Shown here in pieces: positions 23,027 through 39,497 of a stretch of 40,674 bases of DNA (the stretch's first letter is position 1; every line of letters begins with the position of its first letter). The notes under the pieces were generated by a model. The model saw only the letters and a list, made by a program, of their open reading frames with translations. It had not been told where the DNA came from and did not search any database. A program made the position numbers and the translations under genes. The stretch comes from Bacteroidota bacterium (GTDB taxonomy: Bacteria > Bacteroidota > Bacteroidia > M30B66), in NCBI GenBank assembly GCA_947460255.1, contig CANHIS010000023.1:1-40674 (forward strand), written 5' to 3'.

Positions 23027-23042
23027 TACATATATATATGTA
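23027..23042. promoter_or_regulatory. 16-bp perfect palindrome just before the giant gene
   Basis: TACATATATATATGTA is its own reverse complement and ends 19 bp before the ATG at 23062. Its core is simple TA alternation, so it may be chance, a protein-binding site, or an easily melted leader element. Confidence 0.3.
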
Positions 23043-23061
23043 CACAACACAAGACGACACG

Positions 23062-26000
23062 ATGAAAAAGATTTTACAACTGTTCACATTGACGCTGCTT
23101 GCCGTTTTTGCGTTTGGGAATCGAGCTCAGGCTCAATGCGCAAATAATAACGTGCTGTTTTTCGGCTATAGTGCTCCAACTACAATTGGTGCTTCTGTAG
23201 GTTCTGAAGTTTGTATCTATGCTGGTGAATATTACCTCATTAGTAACATGCAAGCAGGAAGTACTTACCGCATTTCCTCATGCGGAAGTGCCGATATTAC
23301 TGATACAAGACTAACTGTATTTTCAAATACAGGGGGATCTGCTTTGGCGTTTAACGATGATTTTTGCGGAACTAGAGCACAACTCGACTTTACTCCATCA
23401 GCAAACGGAAACTATCGAATTCTTTTAGATAAGACTGGTCCAGGTAATACCTGCGAATCTACAATCAGCACCAATGAGTGTGGTGAGATTGTTGTAACTC
23501 TTATATCTGCAGGATCTGGTAGCGAGTATTGTATCCCTAACTATACTGCTGGAACCGTAAACGGAGACTTTATTAACGGAGTTACTTTAGGTTCTATTTC
23601 AAATTTGAATTCTGGATTGTCTTCTGGGCCATCATACAATGACTTTACAGCTCAATCAACTCAACTTTCTCCTGGTACAGGTTACACTTTATCTATTCAG
23701 AATAACCCTGATTTTCTAGAGAACATTGCTGCTTGGATTGATTACAACCAAGATTTGGAGTTTTCACAAGACGAACTTCTGGGCCAAATCCAAGTTACTG
23801 CTGGTGCAACTGGAACTATCACATTCACGACTCCTTCATCTGTTGTTGCTGGTGAAACAAGACTCAGAATCAGATCTGCATTTACAATTCCCGTTTCTGG
23901 TGCTGATATGGACCCATGTGCAACATACCAATTTGGAGAAGCTGAGGATTATGCAGTAGTATTTCCTTCAGATCCTCCAGGGCCGACTTCAGATCTAAGC
24001 TTCTCAACTGCTTGCGGAATTTCAACCGCAATTCAAGACAACGCTTGTCCTAACAATACATTATCTACTGTTACGGTTGCTGGTTTGGGTCTTTTAGGGA
24101 CGAATCATTTGATTCAATCTGTAGATATCATTATTGAACATACGATGGCTGCTGATTTGGATTTATTCCTTCAGGGGCCAGATGGGCAAGTTGTAGAACT
24201 TTCTACTGATAACGGAGGTAGCGGTGCTAATTATGGATTTTATCAGACAGATAATTGTACTCAGTTTGCACGCTTTACTATGTCTGCTGCTTCACCAATC
24301 AATGGCGGAACAGCTCCTTTTATAGGATCATTCCTACCTGAAGGCGATTTATCGGATTTCAATGATGGTGGTTCCGCAAATGGTATTTGGAGACTGCGTG
24401 CGTGTGATGATTTTGCAGGAGATGTTGGAACCATTCGTTATTTCAGAATTAATTTTGAGAATGTTCAAACAGAAGTACCTGCTTGTGCTGAGTCTTACGG
24501 CCTTGCAGATGCTGCGCAGAATGTTTCACTCGATCAACAACTTACATGGGTTGCTGGTTTAGGTCAGCCTTCTTCCTATGATGTGTTTTTTGGAACAACT
24601 GCTACACCAGCATTGTCATCCGATAACCAACAAGCAACATCTTACGATCCAGGTGCACTTTTACCAAACACCCAATATTTTTACCAAGTGATTCCGGCAA
24701 ATTCAGCTGGAAGTGCAAGTGGATGTCCTGTTCGTTCATTTACAACCACTGATAACAGCGATGTTATCCTCATGTCGAATGGAGTAATCAATACTTGTTC
24801 AGGAACATTTACTGATGCAGGCGGTGTGAATGGAAATTACTTCAATAACGACACTTTGTTATTGACCATTTTCCCAGACCAGCCAAACTCATCAGTTCAA
24901 GTTGATTTCAATTCATTTGAAATTGAAACAGGATTTGATGCTCTCGTTATCCTTGATGGAATCGACGAGAACAGCACTCTCATAGGTGTATATTTGGGAA
25001 CTGATTCACCTGGAACTGTAACTGCAACAAATCCTCAAGGAGCGTTAACTTTCGCATTTCTTTCTGATGACATTCTTAACGCACCAGGTTGGACTGCCTC
25101 AATATCTTGCGTGCCTTCTGGTTCAACTCCAGGTTGTGCAACTGCATTGTCGCCTGCAAATGACGCAATCAATGTGTCTACACAAGCCAATTTATCTTGG
25201 TCAGCTGGAACAGGAACTGCAACAACTTATGATGTTTACTTTGGTACATCTGCCACTCCAGTTTTACTTCAAGCTGATGTAGTAGGAACTTCTTTTGATC
25301 TTCCAACTTTACTGAATGAAACTATTTACTATTATCAGGTTGTTCCTAAGAACTCTAATGGTTCAGCAACTGATTGTGCAGTTTTAAGTTTCACTACTGA
25401 AGCAGTTGCTGAGAATATTGTTCTTATGCAAAATGGAACTGTCACTACTTGTGATGCTTTGTTCTTTGATTCAGGAGCTGCAGGCAATGACTACAGCAAT
25501 GGAGAATCATTAACATTAACCATTCTACCTGAAACACCAGGAAGTTTAGTTAGTGTAACATTTAATCAATTCAATACAGAGTCAGGAGCAGATTTTTTAG
25601 CTGTTTATAACGGCTCTAGCAGTCAAGTGCCTTTTCCACCTCTTTCTTCTCTTAGCGGAAGTATTTCATTGCCTTTAACCATTACTTCTAGTTCTGTCGA
25701 TGGATCATTAACATTTGTTTTTTCTTCTGACTTTCAAGTTAGTAATTCAGGTTGGTCCGCTCAAATTACCTGCGTAGAAGATAATTTGGTGCCGGATTGT
25801 GCTCTTCAACTCATCCCTTCTAATAACGCGACAAATGTTTCATTAAGTCCAGTTTTAAGTTGGCAGAGTGCCGGTGGGTCCCCAACAGGTTTTGATGTTC
25901 TTTTGGGAACAAGTTCTACCGAATTATTGCTTGTAGGCGATAGCTTGTCAAATAACTCTTTACAACTTGAGTCTCTTGAAGTCAATACTAATTATTTTTG

Positions 26001-29000
26001 GTCTGTGGTACCTTTGAATTTAAATGGTTCTGCGGTAGGGTGTCCTGTTTTTCAGTTTACAACGACACCGAATCAAGAAGTACTAATGTCAAATGATACT
26101 CTGTCGGCTTGCGGTTTTTCCTTTTTTGATAATGGAGGACTTGATCAGAGTTATTCATCAAACGCTTTTGAATCATTAACTTTTATTCCTGAAAACGATG
26201 GAGATCTTGTAAAAGTTGAATTCGTTAGTTTTGATTTAGAAACAGATGTAGATCAGTTGTTGGTTTTCAATGGTTCTAGTTCTGAAAACCTAGATAATTT
26301 GTTAGGCGCTTTCACCGGGACTGATAACCCAGGAACATTTACATCATCAGCTTTGGATGGTTCTTTGACATTTGTGTTTGTTTCGGATGAAGTTAATAGC
26401 TTGAATTCAGGTTGGGAAGCCGATATAACATGCGTTGCAGCTCCATCTGTTCCTAATTGTGCTTTAAATCTTTCACCTGCTAATGGTTTTGTGTCATCCG
26501 AGCCAAATGTTTCCTTATCATGGTCCGCTCCATCAGTTGATATAACTGAATATCAGGTATTCATTTCGACAAGTCCTTTGAACTTGGAACTCATTTCAAC
26601 TCAAGATTCTACAAGTTATAATTTGAGTAACCTAATTGATGGATTTACCTACTACTGGCAAGTTGTTCCAGTTAATCTAGTTGGTCCATCAGTTGGATGT
26701 CCTGTGAATAGCTTTAGCTATACTTCTTCTGTTGTAAATGAAATACTCATGCAAAGCAGCAGTCTTTCTGTTTGCGAAGGCAATTTCTTCGACGCAGGTG
26801 GAGCTAATGCTGATTACAATTCTGACGAACTTTTCACACTTACATTAACACCTTCAACACCAAATTCTTTACTTCAAATAGATTTCTCAGTATTCGATAC
26901 CGAAGAAGAGTATGATTCTTTATTGATTTACAATGGTAATAGCGTCTCTGCGCCTTTACTTGGTAATTTCCAAGGAACATTAGCTCCATTTACAGTAGTT
27001 TCTTCTGCTATTGATGGTTCTTTAACGCTTGTTTTTGCATCTGATGTTTCATTTGAATTTGAAGGATGGGAAGCAGCAATTTCATGCGTTGATGCTGATG
27101 CTGCTCCTGAATGTGCTTCAAATCTTCTTCCTGCAAACAATGCTGTAGAGGTTTCACTTTCTACTAGTCTTACATGGACAACTGGTGGCGGAGCTTCAAC
27201 AGGTTATGATGTTTATTTTGGAACAGATCCTTTGGATTTGGTACTTGTTGCTTCTAATATTCAGACAACTTCATATGTTCCTGAATCGCTTGTTCTAAAT
27301 ACTGCTTACTTCTGGCAAGTGGTACCAAGAAATAATGATCAATTGGCAGAGAACTGTGCAGTGAATGCATTCACCACCGAAGCTTCTCAGAACATTTTGA
27401 TGCAAAACGGAACGTTTACTTTATGTTCTGCTGATTTCTTTGACTCAGGTGATGCTACAGCTAATTACGCAAACAACCAAGATTTAACATTGACTTTCAT
27501 TCCTGAAATTGCAGGTAATGTTATCCAAGTTTCTTTCACTGAGTTTGAAACTGAACTTGAATATGATACATTAAGAATTTTCAATGGTAACTCTACTGCA
27601 GCTCCATTATTGGCTGAGCTTGATGGCACTGCTGGCGCTGGTCAGTCTTATGTTTCAACTGCTCTTGATGGTTCATTGACATTCAGATTTACTTCAGATG
27701 TTTCGTTTACTGAATTGGGTTGGGTAGCTTCTATTGTTTGTGTTAATCCTAATGCAGCTCCTGAATGTGCTTCGAATCCAATTCCTGCTAATCTTTCAAC
27801 TGGAGTTGATAATTCTGGAACAACAATTTCTTGGACTGCTTCAGTTGGTGTAGTAACTGGATATGATGTGTTTTTCGGCACTGATCCTTTAGCCCTTACT
27901 CAAGTGGCTACCAATCAGGTTGGCACTTCATACAATGCTGGCGATCTTGCGCTTAATACAACCTATTTCTGGCAGGTTATTGCTCAAAGCGCAAATGGTC
28001 CGGCTGAAGATTGTGCGGTAAATTCATTTACAACAACTGCTGTTCAGAACATTGTAATGAGTAATGCAACTGTTACAACTTGTGGAGCGAACTTCTTTGA
28101 CTCTGAAGGTGCTGATGCAGATTACTTGAACAATGAGGATTACACACTCACATTCTTGCCTGCTACTTCTGGAAACGTAATCGAAGTAACTTTCAATGAA
28201 TTTGCTTTAGAGGTTAGTCCTTTTGATGGTACCATTTATGATACCTTGTTTGTTTATAATGGTTCTTCTGTAAATGCTCCACTTATTGGTTTCTATTCTG
28301 GAACTACTATTCCAGGACCATTCACATCTTCTGATGCTTCAGGTGGATTAACATTCCGTTTCTCTTCTGATTTTACCGTTGGCGAAGCGGGCTGGGCTGC
28401 TTCTTTAGCTTGTATTGAAACTTCAGGAGCCCCTGATTGCGCTGCTAACCTAACTCCAGCTAATGCTGCTACTGATGTAACTTTTGTTCCGGTTCTTAAC
28501 TGGCAATCTGGTGGAGGAATTGTTACAGGATACGATGTGTATTTTGGAACAGATCCTTTGGCACTAGAACTTGTATCTGACAATCAAATAGGTACAACAT
28601 ATGAGACTGGCGCATTGGAACTTAACACAACTTATTATTGGCAAGTTATTCCTTCGAATGATGAAGGTTCTGCTACTGACTGTCCTGTAAATAGCTTCAC
28701 AACTGCTCCTACGAATGATTTAGTTATTTTCAATGGAGAATTGACTTTGTGCGATGCAACCTTGTTTGATAGTGGTGGATCTGATGGTGATTATGATAAC
28801 GATGAAGATTTCGTTTTAACAATTTTCCCATCAACTCCAGGATCATTTGTTCAACTAGATTTTACTTCGTTTATCACTGAAGAAGGTTTTGACTTCCTTA
28901 ACGTGTACGATGGAAATTCGATTAACGGTGCTGAACTTCTTGATGCTAGTGGAGCTACCCTTCCAGCATCTTTGGTTTCAAGTGCTGCTGATGGAAGTTT

Positions 29001-32000
29001 AACTATTGTATTTAGTTCTGATGGATCAGCGGTTGAACCAGGATTTGAAATTGCTATTAGCTGCTTTACTCCAGCTGAAGCTCCAGGTTGCGCTACAAAT
29101 TATCTTCCAGCTGACCTAACAGTTGACGCATCCCTTAATGCTGTTCTTTCTTGGTCTAATGGTACTGGATCTGCAACTGGTTATGATGTGTATTTCGGTA
29201 CCGATCCTGATGCCCTAGTTTTAGCATCTAACGATCAATCAGAGGCAGTTTATACGCCTGATGGATTATTGCCGAATACTACATATTATTGGCAGGTTGT
29301 TCCTTTCAATTTAGTTGGTGAAGCTACTGGTTGTCCTGTGCAATCATTCACAACAGGCGGAGCTGTTGATATCATTATGACAAATGGTTCAATAACTACT
29401 TGTAATGCGAACTTCTACGATTCGGGCGGACTTGATGGGCAATACCAAAACAATGAGAACTTCACTTACACAATTTTCCCAGGTGCTCCAAATAGTGTTG
29501 TTCAAGTAACCTTCACTGCTTTTGGAGGTGAGGCTTGTTGTGATGATATGTTCATCTTTAACGGTAACTCAATAACAGCTCCTCAAATTGGTAATCTTTT
29601 TGGAGCTCCAACATTGCCTCAAACATTTATTTCAACAGCTGCTGATGGGTCTTTAACTTTCAGATTCGCTTCAGATATTTCAATTGTAGGTTTAGGGTTT
29701 GTTGCATCAGTAACTTGTCTTGACACTACGGTTGTACCAGGATGTGCTACTATCACTAGTCCTGCAAATGGAGCCACTGAAGTAAGCTCTACAACAACTG
29801 TTTTATCTTGGACTGCAGGTTCTGGTTACATTACTGGGTATGATGTTTACTTTGGTGATGATTGTGATAACATGGTTTTGATTTCTGATAACCAAACAGG
29901 TACTACCTTCAATCCAGGACAATTAGCTACAAATGCTTCTTATGCTTGGATGGTAGTTCCGGTGAATGGAGTTGGTGAAGCAACTGGCTGTGCTTGTAAT
30001 ACATTCACAACTAGTGGAAACATCGACATCTTAATGCAGAATGGTTCATTTACTACTTGTGCTGCTAACTTCTATGATTCGGGTGGGTTAACTGGAAACT
30101 ATCAAAACAACGAAAGTTCTGAATTGACTATCTGCCCTGATCAACCAAACAGCGCGATTCAAGTGATCTTTACAGCATTTGATGTTGAAGAACGTTTCAA
30201 TACTCCAAACAATCCTTGGGATTGGATGAGTGTTTACAATGGTACTGGAACTGTTGGAACAGCTTACGTTAGTCCTACATCGGGGAATGAAAAATTTTCT
30301 AATAACGTTATCCCTGGACCATTCACTTCCTCTGCTACTGATGGTTGCTTAACATTTACTTTCTCCTCTGATACTTCAGTACCGCTTCCAGGTTGGGCTG
30401 CAACCGTATCTTGTGTAACAACATCAGATGCTCCTTCTTGTGTAAATATTACTAGTGGACCAGCTGATGGAGCTACTGATGTTTGTTTGAACGATGCTGT
30501 TTTCTCCTGGACTCCAGGAGCTGGATCTCCTGCAACAGGTTATGATGTATATTTTGATTTTGATGGTAGCGGATTTATTCTGCTTGCTGATGATCAAACA
30601 ACCACAACATTCGATCCTGGCACTTTGGCGCCAAACACATCTTATGGTGTTATTATTGTTCCAAGCAATGCAAATGGAGAAGCTGTAGGCTGCGATACAA
30701 TTAACTTTACGACTGGTACTTGTTTGATTTATTGCGATGCAGGTTCAAATATTTGTGATGAGTTTATTGCTAATGTTGAAATGGGAGGTATTAATAATGC
30801 TTCTGATTGCACAGATGGCGGATACGCTGATTTTACAAATCTTTCAACTGATGTTTACATTGGAACTGCTACTAACTTGACTGTAACAAATGGTATCTTA
30901 GATTATCCTCAGGATCAAGCTGGTGTTTGGATTGACTGGAATCAAGATGGTGATTTTGATGATGCTGATGAGACAATAACTGTAAACGGAACTCCTGGAG
31001 TTGGACCTTATACTGCTGCAATCACACCTCCTGTTGGTGCTGTTGAAGGACCAACAACTATGCGTATTCGTATTACCTTCACTGGTATTGTTGATCCTTG
31101 TGGTTCAACAACATTTGGTGAGGTTGAAGATTATACAATTATTGTTAATGCGCCACTCGCTTGTCCTTTCCCTAACAACATTACTACAAGCGAAACAACA
31201 ACAACTGCAACAATCGTTACTTGGGACACTGCGCTTGATGCTGGTGAGTACTTGATTCGTTACCGTGCAGCTGATGCTCCTTTAACTGAGTCTACTTGGA
31301 CAAATCCTCAGGTTGTATTAGCTCCAGACAATTTTACATTCTTTACAGATTTGTTGCCTTGTACTGATTATGTATTACAAATTGCTTCTATCTGTCCTGA
31401 TGAAGCTGATACTACATTCTCTCCAAACGTTTCTTTCTTGACTCGTTGTATAGAGTGTACAGTGGATATGACAATTGAATCTGAAATTTGTGGTGATGAT
31501 TCTAATGGTGGTTGTAATTCTACTCCAGCAGCTTATCAACCAATTGCTTGTGGTGAAACTATTTGTGCAACAAGCTTCATGAGCACAACGACTCGTGATA
31601 CAGATTGGTATTCACTTACTGTGGATAACGAAGGAGTTTATACTGTTAACATCCTTGCTGAATTCGAAGGAACAGTGTTGTTTGTTGATGTGGCTGATTG
31701 TGATAACCTAGTTATTCCTTCTCAAGGTAACTTCACAGCCAATACACCTTATACAATTGCAACATCTCTCACGCCAGGTTCTTATGCTATAGTTTTGGTT
31801 CCAGTATTTGAGCAATCACCTTTTGATTGTTCTGGATATAATGCCTATACTATTGAATTGTCGGGTGGTGTAACTCAAATTGCTCCAATAGCTGATGTTT
31901 GTGAGACAACTGCACCGTTTACTTTGTTCGCAATTCCTTCAGGTGGAACATGGTCAGGTACAGGTGTTTCAGATGCAAATGCTGGTACGTTTGATCCTTC

Positions 32001-33498
32001 AACTGCAGGTATTGGAAGTTTTGTAATCACTTACAATGCAACATCTAATGGTTGTGCTTCTCAAGACACAGTTACAATCAATGTAGTAGCTGCTCCACTT
32101 GCTGATTTTGTTGGCTTGGCTGCTTCTTACTGTCCTTCTGATGCAAGTGCAGAGTTAACAGGGATTCCTGCTGGCGGTTTATTCAGTATCAACAACACTG
32201 ACAATGTTGGAATTGATGGTAATACATTTAGTCCAAGTCTCGTAGCACCAGGTTTATACGCAATTACCTACACTGTAAATACTGACGGTTCATGTGCAGC
32301 ATCTATTACTCAGGATGTATTAGTTAATGGTGCTCCAGCAGCTAGTTTCGTACTTGCTGATTCAACATGTAGCCAAGATTCACCAATCGTGCTTTCTGGA
32401 ACACCTTCTGGTGGTATTTTTAGCGGAGCTGGTGTATTTGCAGGAAGTTTTGATCCATCATTGGCTGGAACTGGTTTGATTTCGATTACCTACTCTGTTT
32501 CAGTTCCTGATTCAGTTTGCCCAGGTGTTGCAATAGAAACTATTCAAGTTAATCCTGCTCCTGTAGTTGTTCTGAATGGTCTGTCTTCTACTTACTGCTT
32601 GAATTCTGAAGTTGTTTCATTGGCTGGTACTCCTGCACTTGGAACATATTCTGGTCCAGGTGTTACTGGTGGAACATTCGATCCTGCTGCGGCTGGAGTT
32701 GGTACTCACACTATTCGTTATGAATTTGACAACGGTACTTGTTTAGGATTTGACGAAGTTGTGGTTACTGTTACTGATAACCTAACACTTACGTTCTCTA
32801 TTCCAACTTCAGTTTGTACTGATGCCGATCCATTCTTGTTGACTTCATCACCTTCTGGTGCAGTGTTTAGCGGAGCAGGTGTAAATGGTCAAACATTTAG
32901 TCCTCAAGTTGCTGGTGTTGGAACACATGTTTTAACAGCTACCTACTCAAATGGTACTTGTTCTGCAACTACAACTCAAACTATCACTGTGAATCCTGCT
33001 CCTGTAGCATCATTTAATTACAGTGCAAATGGTTCGACTGTTGTGTTTAGCAATGCTTCTGTGAACGCTTCTTCATACAGTTGGGATTTCGGTGATGGTC
33101 AAACATCAACAGCGGTTAATCCAAGTCATACTTATGGGGCTAACGGTTCTTACGACATCACTTTGATTGCTTCAAGCGCTGGTTGTGGTTCTGATACTTT
33201 CACCGTAGAACTTGAACTTTCAGTTGGAATTGGAAGTATCGATGGTGTTGACATGATTCAGCTTTACCCTAATCCAACTCAGGGTGATGTGATGTTGACT
33301 TTCAACTCTCTTGCTTCACAGTCATTTGAAGTACGTATTACTGACGCAATTGGTCGTTTGATTCAAGTTGAAAACGTGAACAATTACATGGGCAAATTCA
33401 GCAAGGTTTATGACCTTAGCGATCTAGCTCGTGGAGTTTACACTTTCAGCGTATCTTCTGAGAAAGGTGCAATCAACTTCAGAGTTGTAAAGCACTAA
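23062..33498 (+). CDS. Giant T9SS-secreted multidomain surface protein
   Basis: A 3478-residue predicted cell-surface or secreted protein. ATG 23062 gives a clean signal peptide (M-K-K-I-L-Q-L-F start, R-A-Q-A-Q end near residue 24). Domains in order: a beta-sandwich (25-155); GEVED domain (156-302); P-domain like that of proprotein convertases (311-471); ten FnIII-like units alternating with nine CUB-like units (473-2553); a second GEVED domain (2557-2696); an FnIII domain (about 2700-2795); a PPC-like domain (about 2797-2935); five GG-SG-G units (2936-3310); PKD with W-D-F-G-D-G-Q (from 3311); and a type A sorting domain (from 3399) with Y-P-N-P and D-L-S-D-L-A-R-G-V-Y. The last would be cleaved on export through the T9SS. 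No catalytic domain is recognised; adhesion is an inference. Confidence 0.92.
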   Translation: MKKILQLFTLTLLAVFAFGNRAQAQCANNNVLFFGYSAPTTIGASVGSEVCIYAGEYYLISNMQAGSTYRISSCGSADITDTRLTVFSNTGGSALAFNDDFCGTRAQLDFTPSANGNYRILLDKTGPGNTCESTISTNECGEIVVTLISAGSGSEYCIPNYTAGTVNGDFINGVTLGSISNLNSGLSSGPSYNDFTAQSTQLSPGTGYTLSIQNNPDFLENIAAWIDYNQDLEFSQDELLGQIQVTAGATGTITFTTPSSVVAGETRLRIRSAFTIPVSGADMDPCATYQFGEAEDYAVVFPSDPPGPTSDLSFSTACGISTAIQDNACPNNTLSTVTVAGLGLLGTNHLIQSVDIIIEHTMAADLDLFLQGPDGQVVELSTDNGGSGANYGFYQTDNCTQFARFTMSAASPINGGTAPFIGSFLPEGDLSDFNDGGSANGIWRLRACDDFAGDVGTIRYFRINFENVQTEVPACAESYGLADAAQNVSLDQQLTWVAGLGQPSSYDVFFGTTATPALSSDNQQATSYDPGALLPNTQYFYQVIPANSAGSASGCPVRSFTTTDNSDVILMSNGVINTCSGTFTDAGGVNGNYFNNDTLLLTIFPDQPNSSVQVDFNSFEIETGFDALVILDGIDENSTLIGVYLGTDSPGTVTATNPQGALTFAFLSDDILNAPGWTASISCVPSGSTPGCATALSPANDAINVSTQANLSWSAGTGTATTYDVYFGTSATPVLLQADVVGTSFDLPTLLNETIYYYQVVPKNSNGSATDCAVLSFTTEAVAENIVLMQNGTVTTCDALFFDSGAAGNDYSNGESLTLTILPETPGSLVSVTFNQFNTESGADFLAVYNGSSSQVPFPPLSSLSGSISLPLTITSSSVDGSLTFVFSSDFQVSNSGWSAQITCVEDNLVPDCALQLIPSNNATNVSLSPVLSWQSAGGSPTGFDVLLGTSSTELLLVGDSLSNNSLQLESLEVNTNYFWSVVPLNLNGSAVGCPVFQFTTTPNQEVLMSNDTLSACGFSFFDNGGLDQSYSSNAFESLTFIPENDGDLVKVEFVSFDLETDVDQLLVFNGSSSENLDNLLGAFTGTDNPGTFTSSALDGSLTFVFVSDEVNSLNSGWEADITCVAAPSVPNCALNLSPANGFVSSEPNVSLSWSAPSVDITEYQVFISTSPLNLELISTQDSTSYNLSNLIDGFTYYWQVVPVNLVGPSVGCPVNSFSYTSSVVNEILMQSSSLSVCEGNFFDAGGANADYNSDELFTLTLTPSTPNSLLQIDFSVFDTEEEYDSLLIYNGNSVSAPLLGNFQGTLAPFTVVSSAIDGSLTLVFASDVSFEFEGWEAAISCVDADAAPECASNLLPANNAVEVSLSTSLTWTTGGGASTGYDVYFGTDPLDLVLVASNIQTTSYVPESLVLNTAYFWQVVPRNNDQLAENCAVNAFTTEASQNILMQNGTFTLCSADFFDSGDATANYANNQDLTLTFIPEIAGNVIQVSFTEFETELEYDTLRIFNGNSTAAPLLAELDGTAGAGQSYVSTALDGSLTFRFTSDVSFTELGWVASIVCVNPNAAPECASNPIPANLSTGVDNSGTTISWTASVGVVTGYDVFFGTDPLALTQVATNQVGTSYNAGDLALNTTYFWQVIAQSANGPAEDCAVNSFTTTAVQNIVMSNATVTTCGANFFDSEGADADYLNNEDYTLTFLPATSGNVIEVTFNEFALEVSPFDGTIYDTLFVYNGSSVNAPLIGFYSGTTIPGPFTSSDASGGLTFRFSSDFTVGEAGWAASLACIETSGAPDCAANLTPANAATDVTFVPVLNWQSGGGIVTGYDVYFGTDPLALELVSDNQIGTTYETGALELNTTYYWQVIPSNDEGSATDCPVNSFTTAPTNDLVIFNGELTLCDATLFDSGGSDGDYDNDEDFVLTIFPSTPGSFVQLDFTSFITEEGFDFLNVYDGNSINGAELLDASGATLPASLVSSAADGSLTIVFSSDGSAVEPGFEIAISCFTPAEAPGCATNYLPADLTVDASLNAVLSWSNGTGSATGYDVYFGTDPDALVLASNDQSEAVYTPDGLLPNTTYYWQVVPFNLVGEATGCPVQSFTTGGAVDIIMTNGSITTCNANFYDSGGLDGQYQNNENFTYTIFPGAPNSVVQVTFTAFGGEACCDDMFIFNGNSITAPQIGNLFGAPTLPQTFISTAADGSLTFRFASDISIVGLGFVASVTCLDTTVVPGCATITSPANGATEVSSTTTVLSWTAGSGYITGYDVYFGDDCDNMVLISDNQTGTTFNPGQLATNASYAWMVVPVNGVGEATGCACNTFTTSGNIDILMQNGSFTTCAANFYDSGGLTGNYQNNESSELTICPDQPNSAIQVIFTAFDVEERFNTPNNPWDWMSVYNGTGTVGTAYVSPTSGNEKFSNNVIPGPFTSSATDGCLTFTFSSDTSVPLPGWAATVSCVTTSDAPSCVNITSGPADGATDVCLNDAVFSWTPGAGSPATGYDVYFDFDGSGFILLADDQTTTTFDPGTLAPNTSYGVIIVPSNANGEAVGCDTINFTTGTCLIYCDAGSNICDEFIANVEMGGINNASDCTDGGYADFTNLSTDVYIGTATNLTVTNGILDYPQDQAGVWIDWNQDGDFDDADETITVNGTPGVGPYTAAITPPVGAVEGPTTMRIRITFTGIVDPCGSTTFGEVEDYTIIVNAPLACPFPNNITTSETTTTATIVTWDTALDAGEYLIRYRAADAPLTESTWTNPQVVLAPDNFTFFTDLLPCTDYVLQIASICPDEADTTFSPNVSFLTRCIECTVDMTIESEICGDDSNGGCNSTPAAYQPIACGETICATSFMSTTTRDTDWYSLTVDNEGVYTVNILAEFEGTVLFVDVADCDNLVIPSQGNFTANTPYTIATSLTPGSYAIVLVPVFEQSPFDCSGYNAYTIELSGGVTQIAPIADVCETTAPFTLFAIPSGGTWSGTGVSDANAGTFDPSTAGIGSFVITYNATSNGCASQDTVTINVVAAPLADFVGLAASYCPSDASAELTGIPAGGLFSINNTDNVGIDGNTFSPSLVAPGLYAITYTVNTDGSCAASITQDVLVNGAPAASFVLADSTCSQDSPIVLSGTPSGGIFSGAGVFAGSFDPSLAGTGLISITYSVSVPDSVCPGVAIETIQVNPAPVVVLNGLSSTYCLNSEVVSLAGTPALGTYSGPGVTGGTFDPAAAGVGTHTIRYEFDNGTCLGFDEVVVTVTDNLTLTFSIPTSVCTDADPFLLTSSPSGAVFSGAGVNGQTFSPQVAGVGTHVLTATYSNGTCSATTTQTITVNPAPVASFNYSANGSTVVFSNASVNASSYSWDFGDGQTSTAVNPSHTYGANGSYDITLIASSAGCGSDTFTVELELSVGIGSIDGVDMIQLYPNPTQGDVMLTFNSLASQSFEVRITDAIGRLIQVENVNNYMGKFSKVYDLSDLARGVYTFSVSSEKGAINFRVVKH
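24478..30720 (+). repeat. Tandem FnIII-like/CUB-like array, ten and nine units
   Basis: FnIII-like units begin at 24478, 25129, 25792, 26452, 27106, 27760, 28432, 29083, 29737 and 30433, so the period is 651-696 bp (217-232 residues). Each opens with P-x-C-A and contains G-Y-D-V-Y-F-G-T. CUB-like units follow, the first at 24760, opening with M-x-N-G-x-x-x-T-C and ending in a cysteine after G-W-x-A. Protein similarity is strong while DNA has diverged, which points to old duplications under selection. Units 5 to 8 look most alike. Confidence 0.9.
31867..32991 (+). repeat. Five tandem 74-79-residue GG-SG-G units
   Basis: Units begin at 31867, 32089, 32326, 32551 and 32773, spaced 222-237 bp. 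Each has an early cysteine, then P-S-G-G or similar, S-G-x-G-V, F-x-P-x-x-A-G-x-G and I-x-Y, and a later cysteine. They resemble the short Ig-like surface repeats common in T9SS adhesins and precede the PKD domain. Confidence 0.8.
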
Positions 33499-36580: not shown

Positions 36581-37423
36581 ATGAGAAAGCTTTTATCTGT
36601 TGCTTTTTGTGCAATATTCATTGCAGTATTTCAACTCCCTACTATTGCAGGCAACGAGAATCAGCCAGTTGGAGCTCGTTCTGCTGGCTTGGCGAATGCA
36701 AGTTTAACATTAAGTGATGTGTGGAGTGTTCACCACAATCAAGCAGGTTTAGGATCGATTCGGAAAATCTCGGCAGGCGTTTATTACGAAAGTCGATTCT
36801 TGATGCCTGAACTTGGAATAAGTGCAGGAGCATTGGCCATACCGATTGGTAAAGGAACATTCGGTTTAAGTTTTCGTTCGTTCGGCTATCAAGCTTACAA
36901 GGAGAATAAGATTGGACTCGCATACGGAAGAGCATTTGGCGATTTCCTTAGTATCGGCATGCAACTTAATTTTCAGTCAGCCGTTTTCTCCGAATTTTAT
37001 GGCAGCTCATCCACATTTACTGCAGAAATTGGAGCCATCTACAAAGCAGGCAAAAAGGTAACCTTAGCAGCTCATCTATTCAATCCTAATCAATCTCGAA
37101 TTGCGGAGTTTGATGATGAAAGAATTCCATCGGTGATCAGGTTTGGTGCACGATATCTTTTCTCAAGCCAAGTTTTTGTGGTGGCAGAGGTTGAAAATGC
37201 ACTTTATCAAAAACCGGTTCTCCGCGGAGGTCTCGAGTATCGTCCCATTGACATTTTGTACGTTAGAGCAGGAATTTCAGGAAACCCAATGAATAGCAAT
37301 TTTGGCTTCGGACTGCAGATGAAGAAGTTTCAATTAGATTTTGCAGGGGCGTTTCATCAAGTCTTAGGTTTTACACCAAAGATTTCTCTCACTTTCAATC
37401 CAACTGCAGGGAATGAAAAGTAG
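36581..37423 (+). CDS. PorV/FadL-like outer-membrane beta-barrel protein
   Basis: A 280-residue protein with a signal peptide (M-R-K-L-L start, P-T-I-A-G end near 24) followed by G-A-R-S-A-G-L-A-N-A-S-L and H-H-N-Q-A-G-L-G. That opening pattern is shared by PorV/PorQ and FadL-type barrels. The rest is amphipathic beta strands with G-F-G-L-Q and a C-terminal S-L-T-F segment. It sits 64 bp after purE behind a leader hairpin and overlaps the next gene by 11 bp, so it is probably made together with the helix-hairpin-helix barrel. A true T9SS PorV is longer (about 390 residues), so this is a relative, not PorV itself. Its function is unknown. Confidence 0.75.
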   Translation: MRKLLSVAFCAIFIAVFQLPTIAGNENQPVGARSAGLANASLTLSDVWSVHHNQAGLGSIRKISAGVYYESRFLMPELGISAGALAIPIGKGTFGLSFRSFGYQAYKENKIGLAYGRAFGDFLSIGMQLNFQSAVFSEFYGSSSTFTAEIGAIYKAGKKVTLAAHLFNPNQSRIAEFDDERIPSVIRFGARYLFSSQVFVVAEVENALYQKPVLRGGLEYRPIDILYVRAGISGNPMNSNFGFGLQMKKFQLDFAGAFHQVLGFTPKISLTFNPTAGNEK

Positions 37424-39497
37424 GATTCTAATTTTCTTATTGGTTATTTGTTTGCATGGATTTGGTCAACAGTTGCCTGATCCTAGAACAGATGGTTTCA
37501 TCGAGCAGAAAATCGAAACGATTGCAGAAAATGCTTCTGAGGATATCGACTTTACAACAGTTTTTGAGGCGCTTAACTATTACAAGGGGAACCCTTTGGA
37601 ACTAAATACAGCGACTACCGAAGATTTGCAACAACTGTTTATTGTTTCAGATTTTCAGATTGCCTCATTAATTACTTATCGACAAAAGTACGGCAAGCTT
37701 CTGTCGATTTATGAACTTCAAGCGGTACCTGGATTTGATCTTCCAACCATTTACCAATTGCTGCCATTTGTTAAAGTCTCTAGAGACCTGAATCGATTGA
37801 ATATCTCCTTGCGTGACATTTTTAAATATGCCACACAAGAAGCAGTTTTTAGAACGGCACAAGTGATTCAAGAGCAAAAGGGGTTCAGCGAAGCCGATTC
37901 TGCAACTTTAGCCGATAATCCAAACGTGCGCTTTATGGGAAGTCCGCAAAGACTTTTTGCTCGTTATAGATTCAAATATGGAACTTTTGTGAGTGCTGGA
38001 TTTACAGCAGAAAAAGATGCCGGAGAAGAGTTTTTCAAAGGAAGTCAACGCCAAGGTTTCGACTTTTATTCAGCGCATTTCGCACTCAGAAATATTGGAA
38101 GATTGAAAGCCTTAACTATAGGCGATTTTCAAGCGCAATTTGGACAAGGCTTGGCACTTTGGACAGGTTTTGGTTTTGGGAAAACAGCTGATGCCATGAA
38201 TGTTAAGCGGTCAGGATTAGGATTAAAACCCTATACTTCGATCAATGAAAACTTATTTCTACGTGGAGTGGGAGCCACCTGGGCGCTTGGGGCGTTTGAA
38301 ATAACTGCCTTTGGATCGATGAAAAAAGTAAATACAAATGCTTCATCGATCGATTCTGTGAGTCAGGATATTCAAGCATTCTCGAATTTCAATCTAAGCG
38401 GTTTTCATCGCACGCCTAATGAATTGCTCGACAAAGGAAACATCAACGAACAAGTGGTTGGTGGCCATCTTGCTTGGAAAAAGAGAAATTTAAATCTGGG
38501 TATCACATTCGCCGATTTCAAATACAGTGCTGCGCTCACCCGTTCTGATGCACCATACAACGCCTTTGAGTTTAATGGGATAAACAACCAAAACATAGGC
38601 TTTGATTTTAATTGGGTGTACAGAAATCTCAACCTTTTTGGAGAGGTGGCTAGAAGTAAAAACGGAGGAGTTTCGGCAACAGCAGGTTTAATTGCAAGTC
38701 TAGATCCCAAATTATCTTTTTCTTTATTGCATCGTAGGTTTGGCAGAGATTATCAAGCTGTTTATACCGCTGCGATTGCTGAAGGATCCCGCGCCATAAA
38801 TGAGTATGGAACCTACATGGGAGTGAATATTCGTCCATCCAAAAGCGTAAGTATTTCAGGGTATTATGATTATTGGACATACCCATGGCTGCGTTTTTTG
38901 GTTGATGCGCCCTCTAATGGCTATGACGCGCTTGCACAAATCAATTATACGCCTTCACGTTCAATGGATATGTATTTCCGGTACCGTGAACGCATTCGAG
39001 CCAGGAATACCACTTCTGACTTTGACGAATTGATAGACTTTCCGCTGGAACAGCTGCAGCAAAACTTTCGATATGATATCATCTACAAGATTTCTCCGTC
39101 ATTTAAGCTTAGAAATCGAGTTGAATATGTGCGTTTTAATACCATCGAAAACAATGTAGAACAAGGCTATGCCGTGATGCAGGACATCATCTACAAGCCA
39201 ATGATGAAGCCTATTTCATTTTCATTTCGTTACGCGCTATTTCGCACAGATGGCTTTAATCCGAGAATTTATGCCTACGAAAACGATATGTTGTATTCGT
39301 TCTCCATTCCAGCATATTTCAACAAGGGTTCTAGAACCTATCTAAATGTTGAATACAGTCTCAATAGAAGTATTGATCTCTGGTTTAGATACGCACAGTT
39401 CTTCTACACTGATTTGGATCAAACTGGATCAGGGCTCACTGAAGTTCAAGGGCCATTAAGATCGGATTTCAGAATCCAACTCCGCGTTAAATTTTAA
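37413..39497 (+). CDS. Outer-membrane beta-barrel with N-terminal helix-hairpin-helix domain
   Basis: A 694-residue protein with a short signal peptide (ending G-F-G-Q near 19). A periplasmic region follows with a ComEA-like double helix-hairpin-helix at about 60-120: N-P-L-E-L-N-T-A-T-T-E-D-L-Q-Q-L, then I-Y-E-L-Q-A-V-P-G-F-D-L. From about 165 to the end it is rich in alternating aromatic strands and finishes in R-I-Q-L-R-V-K-F, as outer-membrane barrels do. Similar HhH-plus-barrel proteins occur across Bacteroidota without an assigned role. DNA binding during uptake is one idea; a protein-interaction role for the HhH is another. It starts inside the preceding barrel gene. Confidence 0.82.
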   Translation: MKSRILIFLLVICLHGFGQQLPDPRTDGFIEQKIETIAENASEDIDFTTVFEALNYYKGNPLELNTATTEDLQQLFIVSDFQIASLITYRQKYGKLLSIYELQAVPGFDLPTIYQLLPFVKVSRDLNRLNISLRDIFKYATQEAVFRTAQVIQEQKGFSEADSATLADNPNVRFMGSPQRLFARYRFKYGTFVSAGFTAEKDAGEEFFKGSQRQGFDFYSAHFALRNIGRLKALTIGDFQAQFGQGLALWTGFGFGKTADAMNVKRSGLGLKPYTSINENLFLRGVGATWALGAFEITAFGSMKKVNTNASSIDSVSQDIQAFSNFNLSGFHRTPNELLDKGNINEQVVGGHLAWKKRNLNLGITFADFKYSAALTRSDAPYNAFEFNGINNQNIGFDFNWVYRNLNLFGEVARSKNGGVSATAGLIASLDPKLSFSLLHRRFGRDYQAVYTAAIAEGSRAINEYGTYMGVNIRPSKSVSISGYYDYWTYPWLRFLVDAPSNGYDALAQINYTPSRSMDMYFRYRERIRARNTTSDFDELIDFPLEQLQQNFRYDIIYKISPSFKLRNRVEYVRFNTIENNVEQGYAVMQDIIYKPMMKPISFSFRYALFRTDGFNPRIYAYENDMLYSFSIPAYFNKGSRTYLNVEYSLNRSIDLWFRYAQFFYTDLDQTGSGLTEVQGPLRSDFRIQLRVKF

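Follow-up and report, generated by a model that had tools for sequence, protein, structure and literature searches.

The window, the whole 40,674-nucleotide stretch of Bacteroidota DNA analysed here, carries near its right end two adjacent genes for predicted outer-membrane barrels, referred to below as the PorV-like gene and the HhH barrel gene (Table 1). The first-pass annotation had described two overlapping frames at this place, and reading of the bases bore this out. The pair is preceded by frames recognised from their translations as purK and purE and is followed, on the opposite strand, by a frame whose translation reads as an oligopeptidase-like protein. A promoter and terminator scan gave no signal above that of shuffled sequences. 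Elsewhere in the window, an uninterrupted reading frame of 3486 aa spans positions 23038-33498.

Table 1. Coordinates (window numbering) of the features of the two-barrel locus.
Feature	Position	Strand	Basis or comment
PorV-like gene, PorV/FadL-fold 14-strand outer-membrane barrel (predicted), 280 aa	36581..37423	+	frame, AlphaFold2, profile
Frame overlap, 11 bp	37413..37423	+	bases read; same overlap in 20/30 loci of family f2
HhH barrel gene, ComEA-type HhH domain and 24-strand barrel (predicted), 694 aa	37413..39497	+	frame, Pfam, AlphaFold2
Acidic N-terminal segment of the HhH barrel protein, residues 24-59, net charge -5	37482..37589	+	family median -7
HHH_3 (ComEA-type) domain, degenerate hairpins, residues 61-120	37593..37772	+	Pfam
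24-strand barrel, residues 141-693, with net positive charge on its inward-facing residues	37833..39491	+	AlphaFold2, charge estimate

The product of the upstream gene matches the NCBIfam profile PorV_fam with an E value of 1.7e-13 and 50.8 bits. This lies below the 90-bit cut-off of the model, and the protein is therefore termed PorV-like rather than being filed in the PorV/PorQ family. Its AlphaFold2 model (pLDDT 91.2) contains 14 strands, as in FadL-type barrels. The model superposes on the solved PorV structure 6h3i_F with a TM score of 0.75; Z scores against solved PorV range from 29.6 to 30.4, and FadL fits equally well (Z up to 31.7). A Z score of 26.7 was obtained with chain 9n2d_B of the Bacteroidota BAM complex, in which a FadL-like barrel also partners a large barrel, although the large barrel of the present pair has an HHH_3 domain and no other Pfam domain.

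The downstream gene had been noted for an HhH domain of the ComEA type lying ahead of a large barrel in the same chain, an arrangement that the analysis upheld. HHH_3 (PF12836) is matched with an E value of 1.9e-7 and 31.5 bits, against a Pfam cut-off of 27, and the predicted strands follow it. It is the sole Pfam match at E<=1; in particular, the Pfam search detected in this protein no secretin domain, as in PilQ-type DNA-uptake channels, and no CarboxypepD_reg or Plug domain. The domain belongs to the same class as that of ComEA, and ComEA structures 8dss and 8dfk are among the solved relatives; other PDB sequence matches beyond ComEA and PorV were weak and were set aside. Unlike ComEA, the HhH domain of the window is fused to a barrel, has lost its hairpin glycines and scores far below the ComEA models, all of which remained under their cut-offs (22.3 bits against 152 for the NCBIfam comEA model). 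The AlphaFold2 model of the whole protein (pLDDT 85.5) shows a small helical N-terminal part followed by 24 strands by our own count. The portion from about residue 130 to 694 aligns end to end with FimD and PapC, ushers whose barrels likewise have 24 strands; alignments to full ushers cover 361-382 residues at an rmsd of 3.7-4.3, with Z scores of 13-15, and identity is 10-12%. Strand number and size are thus similar, but neither usher domains nor a chaperone were found, and the resemblance is one of fold only. The highest Z score (17.7) was given by AlgE, a polyanion exporter, but over a partial alignment, and among the Foldseek and VIA matches listed no single structure was a close relative of the whole large barrel.

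The charge of the barrel interiors was estimated by assigning strand residues to the inner or outer face from hydrophobicity rather than from coordinates, a rough procedure whose sole control is the PorV-like barrel. The net charge of the inward-facing residues of the large barrel had a median of +10 in one set (4 to 16, n=65) and +8 in another (-6 to 17, n=72), as opposed to a median of -1 (-5 to 4, n=62) for the PorV-like barrel treated in the same way. ComEA-type HhH domains bind DNA through a G-h-G hairpin. Such hairpins were present in 0/65 HhH barrel proteins of the window's group and in 19/72 phylum-wide, and the net charge of the domain is -2 in the window, with a median of -3 in its group. 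In families f14, f16 and f27 the second hairpin of the HhH barrel's own domain is deleted in 8/8 sequences compared. The loss of the hairpin glycines and the negative net charge make it doubtful that the domain in the window grips DNA, an idea considered at the outset; in this clade its sequence suggests that it more likely contacts a protein. A separate ComEA-like HhH protein encoded in the window's genome (G000:C10) carries net charges of +4 and +3 on its two HhH segments.

The HhH barrel was present in 111/148 genomes of a phylum-wide panel (single-sequence search) and in 228/295 genomes of the class (profile search). In two sets of HhH barrel loci a PorV-like match was found in 28/30 and 56/71. 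In 73 of 80 named loci the PorV-like gene precedes the HhH barrel gene in the same orientation; in two of the remaining seven it is hidden by a start call that is too long. The gap between the two genes has a median of 2 bp over 141 loci, in which the other recurrent neighbours, as judged from the clusters read, are mostly metabolic and variable. The association thus exceeds chance. It has exceptions. Parabacteroides distasonis has both genes, whereas Bacteroides finegoldii, Phocaeicola massiliensis and a Prevotella have the HhH barrel without a PorV-like partner, none being found near it in these three of the four named Bacteroidales records; the same was true of 23/23 loci of family f16. When 15 genomes with an unlinked HhH barrel were searched in full with the PorV-like profile, five (G002, G007, G041, G071 and G110) gave no match; G063 gave a weaker one of 90 bits. 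No publication on the pair, and no transformation data for it, were found in the open-licence part of PMC. A Bacteroides thetaiotaomicron protein annotated as an HhH domain protein, BT3167, is listed in an iron-response table (PMC10434189).

Since ComEC, the known importer of DNA across the inner membrane, was found in 148/148 panel genomes, its co-occurrence with the pair says nothing; standalone HHH_3 proteins, likewise found in 148/148, do not discriminate either. Gene order was examined in family f2, which may be Sphingobacteriaceae and in which 66/81 genomes carry the HhH barrel. Within the best 30 loci of this family, comEC is the next gene in 27, at distances of -13 to +62 bp. In a partly overlapping set of 44 loci with wide flanks, drawn from the 66 genomes, comEC follows immediately on the same strand in 39, which span 20 genera by our own count, and occurs somewhere in the locus in 41; the PorV-like gene immediately precedes the HhH barrel gene in 36. 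Starts and stops within this three-gene unit often overlap. By comparison, the commonest other neighbours reach 10/44 at position -2 and 14/43 at position +2. The maintenance of comEC directly after the pair while the flanks reshuffle is the strongest new evidence obtained here. In G099, an f2 genome lacking the pair, the order MerR gene, comEC, subsequent gene is kept; 46 bp precede comEC, and tblastn detected no remnant of the pair between the MerR gene and comEC; the HhH barrel is absent from the 5 sampled members of its genus. Outside f2, comEC was nearby in 0/137 loci, the window included, and in the window's genome it lies on another contig (G000:C25). Because it is confined to f2, the linkage, strong as it is, may stem from one event.

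These data bear on the possibility that the HhH barrel serves as an unspecialised porin or conducts polymers such as acidic glycans, its proximity to comEC in f2 being due to coincidence or shared regulation. The match to AlgE and the restriction of the linkage to one family agree with such a role. Yet the linkage holds over 20 genera in spite of the turnover around it, often with overlapping starts and stops, and no polysaccharide gene set appeared among the recurrent neighbour clusters read. We consider this explanation quite unlikely.

Several features of individual loci were recorded. The HhH barrel frames of two f2 genomes look broken, one by an in-frame TGA (G207, where comEC still follows) and the other by a TAG that leaves two pieces (G196). 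A frame read as a RecQ-like helicase comes after comEC in 12/43 f2 loci (for instance, L265:9521-11419). The comEC gene of the window's genome (locus L218) is preceded by a PorP/SprF gene and a gene for a PorE-like OmpA/TPR protein. In G037 (L289:5707-8945) a 387-aa ComEA-like protein with four HHH_3 stretches is encoded directly upstream of comEC and overlapping it. Finally, a ComEC match in G115 (C1:162198-162944) contains two in-frame TAA codons; this 2.0-Mb genome lacks the HhH barrel.

A second connection between the two barrel kinds came from genomes carrying the FMO protein (PF02327), which was found in 36/148 genomes making up families f14, f16 and f27. Being FMO-positive, f16 is probably Chlorobiaceae, to which the naturally transformable Chlorobaculum tepidum (PMC3842273) is related. 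All six long PorV-type proteins examined (371-386 aa) have a C-terminal HHH_3 domain, with E values of 1.3e-12 to 1.9e-17. Each is the best PorV-type match of its genome; they come from five FMO-positive genomes (f14 and f27) and from G001 (f11), in which the PorV-type match is itself weak (56.8 bits). ComEA models matched 3/3 of these proteins tested with NCBIfam. The occurrence of HhH domains on both kinds of barrel, taken with the hairpin deletion in f14, f16 and f27 noted above, suggests that the large barrel and the PorV-type barrel work together. Together with the PorV-like/HhH barrel/comEC unit of f2, these fusions strengthen the part of the initial proposal that tied the pair to DNA uptake, whereas the part that relied on the HhH domain holding DNA is weakened.

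The pairing of a FadL-fold PorV-type barrel with a much larger one recalls the SprA-PorV complex of the type IX secretion system (T9SS). The pair might accordingly be a T9SS-like protein transporter or surface assembly system in which the PorV-like barrel is the carrier, the large barrel the exit or anchor, and the HhH domain a protein-binding element. Besides the fold and profile match to PorV, a porD-type gene of the T9SS lies divergently upstream of the pair in 32/141 loci (one example matching the NF052317 equivalog), the hairpins are lost in the window's group, and the f16 loci without an adjacent PorV-like gene belong to genomes without SprA. SprA, however, has 36 strands (PMC10994853) as opposed to the 24 predicted for the HhH barrel, and lacks the HhH domain of the latter. 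Moreover, SprA_N was absent in 31/148 genomes, namely G002 and all 30 of f16 (20 listed by name, the other 11 deduced by elimination), 30 of them being FMO-positive, and the HhH barrel was retained in 31/31. Since the HhH barrel is thus not restricted to SprA-bearing genomes, the notion that it is a T9SS part was rejected. Loss of the PorV-like gene does not strictly accompany loss of SprA either, for G007 and G041 have SprA. The conserved third gene in f2 is comEC and no T9SS gene, and the domains found on both barrel kinds are of the ComEA type. For these reasons a T9SS-like transporter appears rather unlikely.

A different Bacteroidota route to ComEC has been described in Riemerella, where a screen identified ComEC, DprA, ComF, RecA, a CarboxypepD_reg barrel and DUF5689, HhH and DUF1343 proteins as essential, and reported unfamiliar proteins and no pilus homologues (PMC8459023). 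As far as the available text of that study goes, none of the essential proteins is recognisably a PorV-like/HhH barrel pair, other outer-membrane proteins being needed instead. Like the pair, the Riemerella module RA0C_RS04915/04920/02645 combines an outer-membrane barrel with an HhH protein feeding ComEC (PMC8459023), but the RS04915-type barrel is of another family, with CarboxypepD_reg and a sub-cut-off Plug match (seen in the relative from locus L206). Putative relatives of RA0C_RS04915 were recognised by domain make-up and gene order, and such a barrel adjoins the DUF5689 gene in 11/12 DUF5689 loci fetched. Among 37 class genomes of the phylum panel, the window's included, DUF5689 scored above 140 bits in 18/20 lacking the HhH barrel and in 3/17 having it. 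In 295 class genomes, with Riemerella-type barrels counted at E 1e-100 or better, 39 had both barrels, 25 only the Riemerella type, 189 only the HhH barrel and 42 neither; the HhH barrel is thus also present in 39/64 genomes having the Riemerella-type module. The association is negative but weak (odds ratio 0.35, a figure that ignores kinship), and clean replacement of the HhH barrel by the Riemerella-type module was therefore dropped as a main argument. In 10/12 loci of the series L206-L217, an Exo_endo_phos-type gene (domain shown for L206) lies near the Riemerella-type barrel and DUF5689 genes; a surface DNA-processing unit is a possible reading of this group.

Co-occurrence of the two genes across Bacteroidota and their position before comEC in f2 lead us to propose that the pair is a phylum-wide two-barrel unit and, probably, the portion in the outer membrane of a pathway that imports DNA and ends at ComEC. 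The two proteins would form a complex in which the PorV-like barrel sits on the HhH barrel as PorV does on SprA, where it could close or gate a side opening or else carry a surface subunit. DNA would enter the large barrel through its wide lumen, which the estimate above makes positively charged. On the periplasmic side, the HhH domain or domains, sited on the large barrel in the window and on the PorV-type barrel in the Chlorobia-like genomes, would pass DNA to a membrane-anchored ComEA-like HhH protein, or dock the barrel to it. From this protein (in the window's genome presumably that of contig C10), DNA would go on to ComEC, the outcome being transformation or DNA scavenging.

The second outcome deserves separate mention, in that the pair might import DNA as a source of food or phosphate and not for recombination. 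The genomic evidence just set out fits this as well, as does the wide spread of the HhH barrel, which extends to some lineages that are, to our knowledge, not described as transformable. The linkage to comEC is compatible with either use, and the lack of a nuclease among the recurrent neighbour clusters read speaks against a nutritional one. We regard a purely nutritional role as unlikely. Turning back to import toward ComEC, we tentatively raise the possibility, less secure than the route itself, that the pair constitutes a new Gram-negative DNA-uptake gate, in which a wide HhH barrel of 24 strands, with a PorV-type carrier barrel as its gate, takes the place of the pilus secretin. Where a T9SS exists, the PorV-like protein might bring in a T9SS-secreted surface DNA receptor; this would explain why porD is a neighbour and why SprA-less genomes have no PorV-like gene close to the HhH barrel.

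For the passage of DNA through the outer membrane of Bacteroidota, the pair offers a concrete, deletable candidate in most of the phylum. One family has it linked to comEC. Relatives occur in green-sulfur-type genomes that bear FMO, and kin of these organisms undergo natural transformation in the laboratory. If the proposal is true, the pair would define a type of pore for natural transformation and a route by which genes spread among gut and environmental bacteria.
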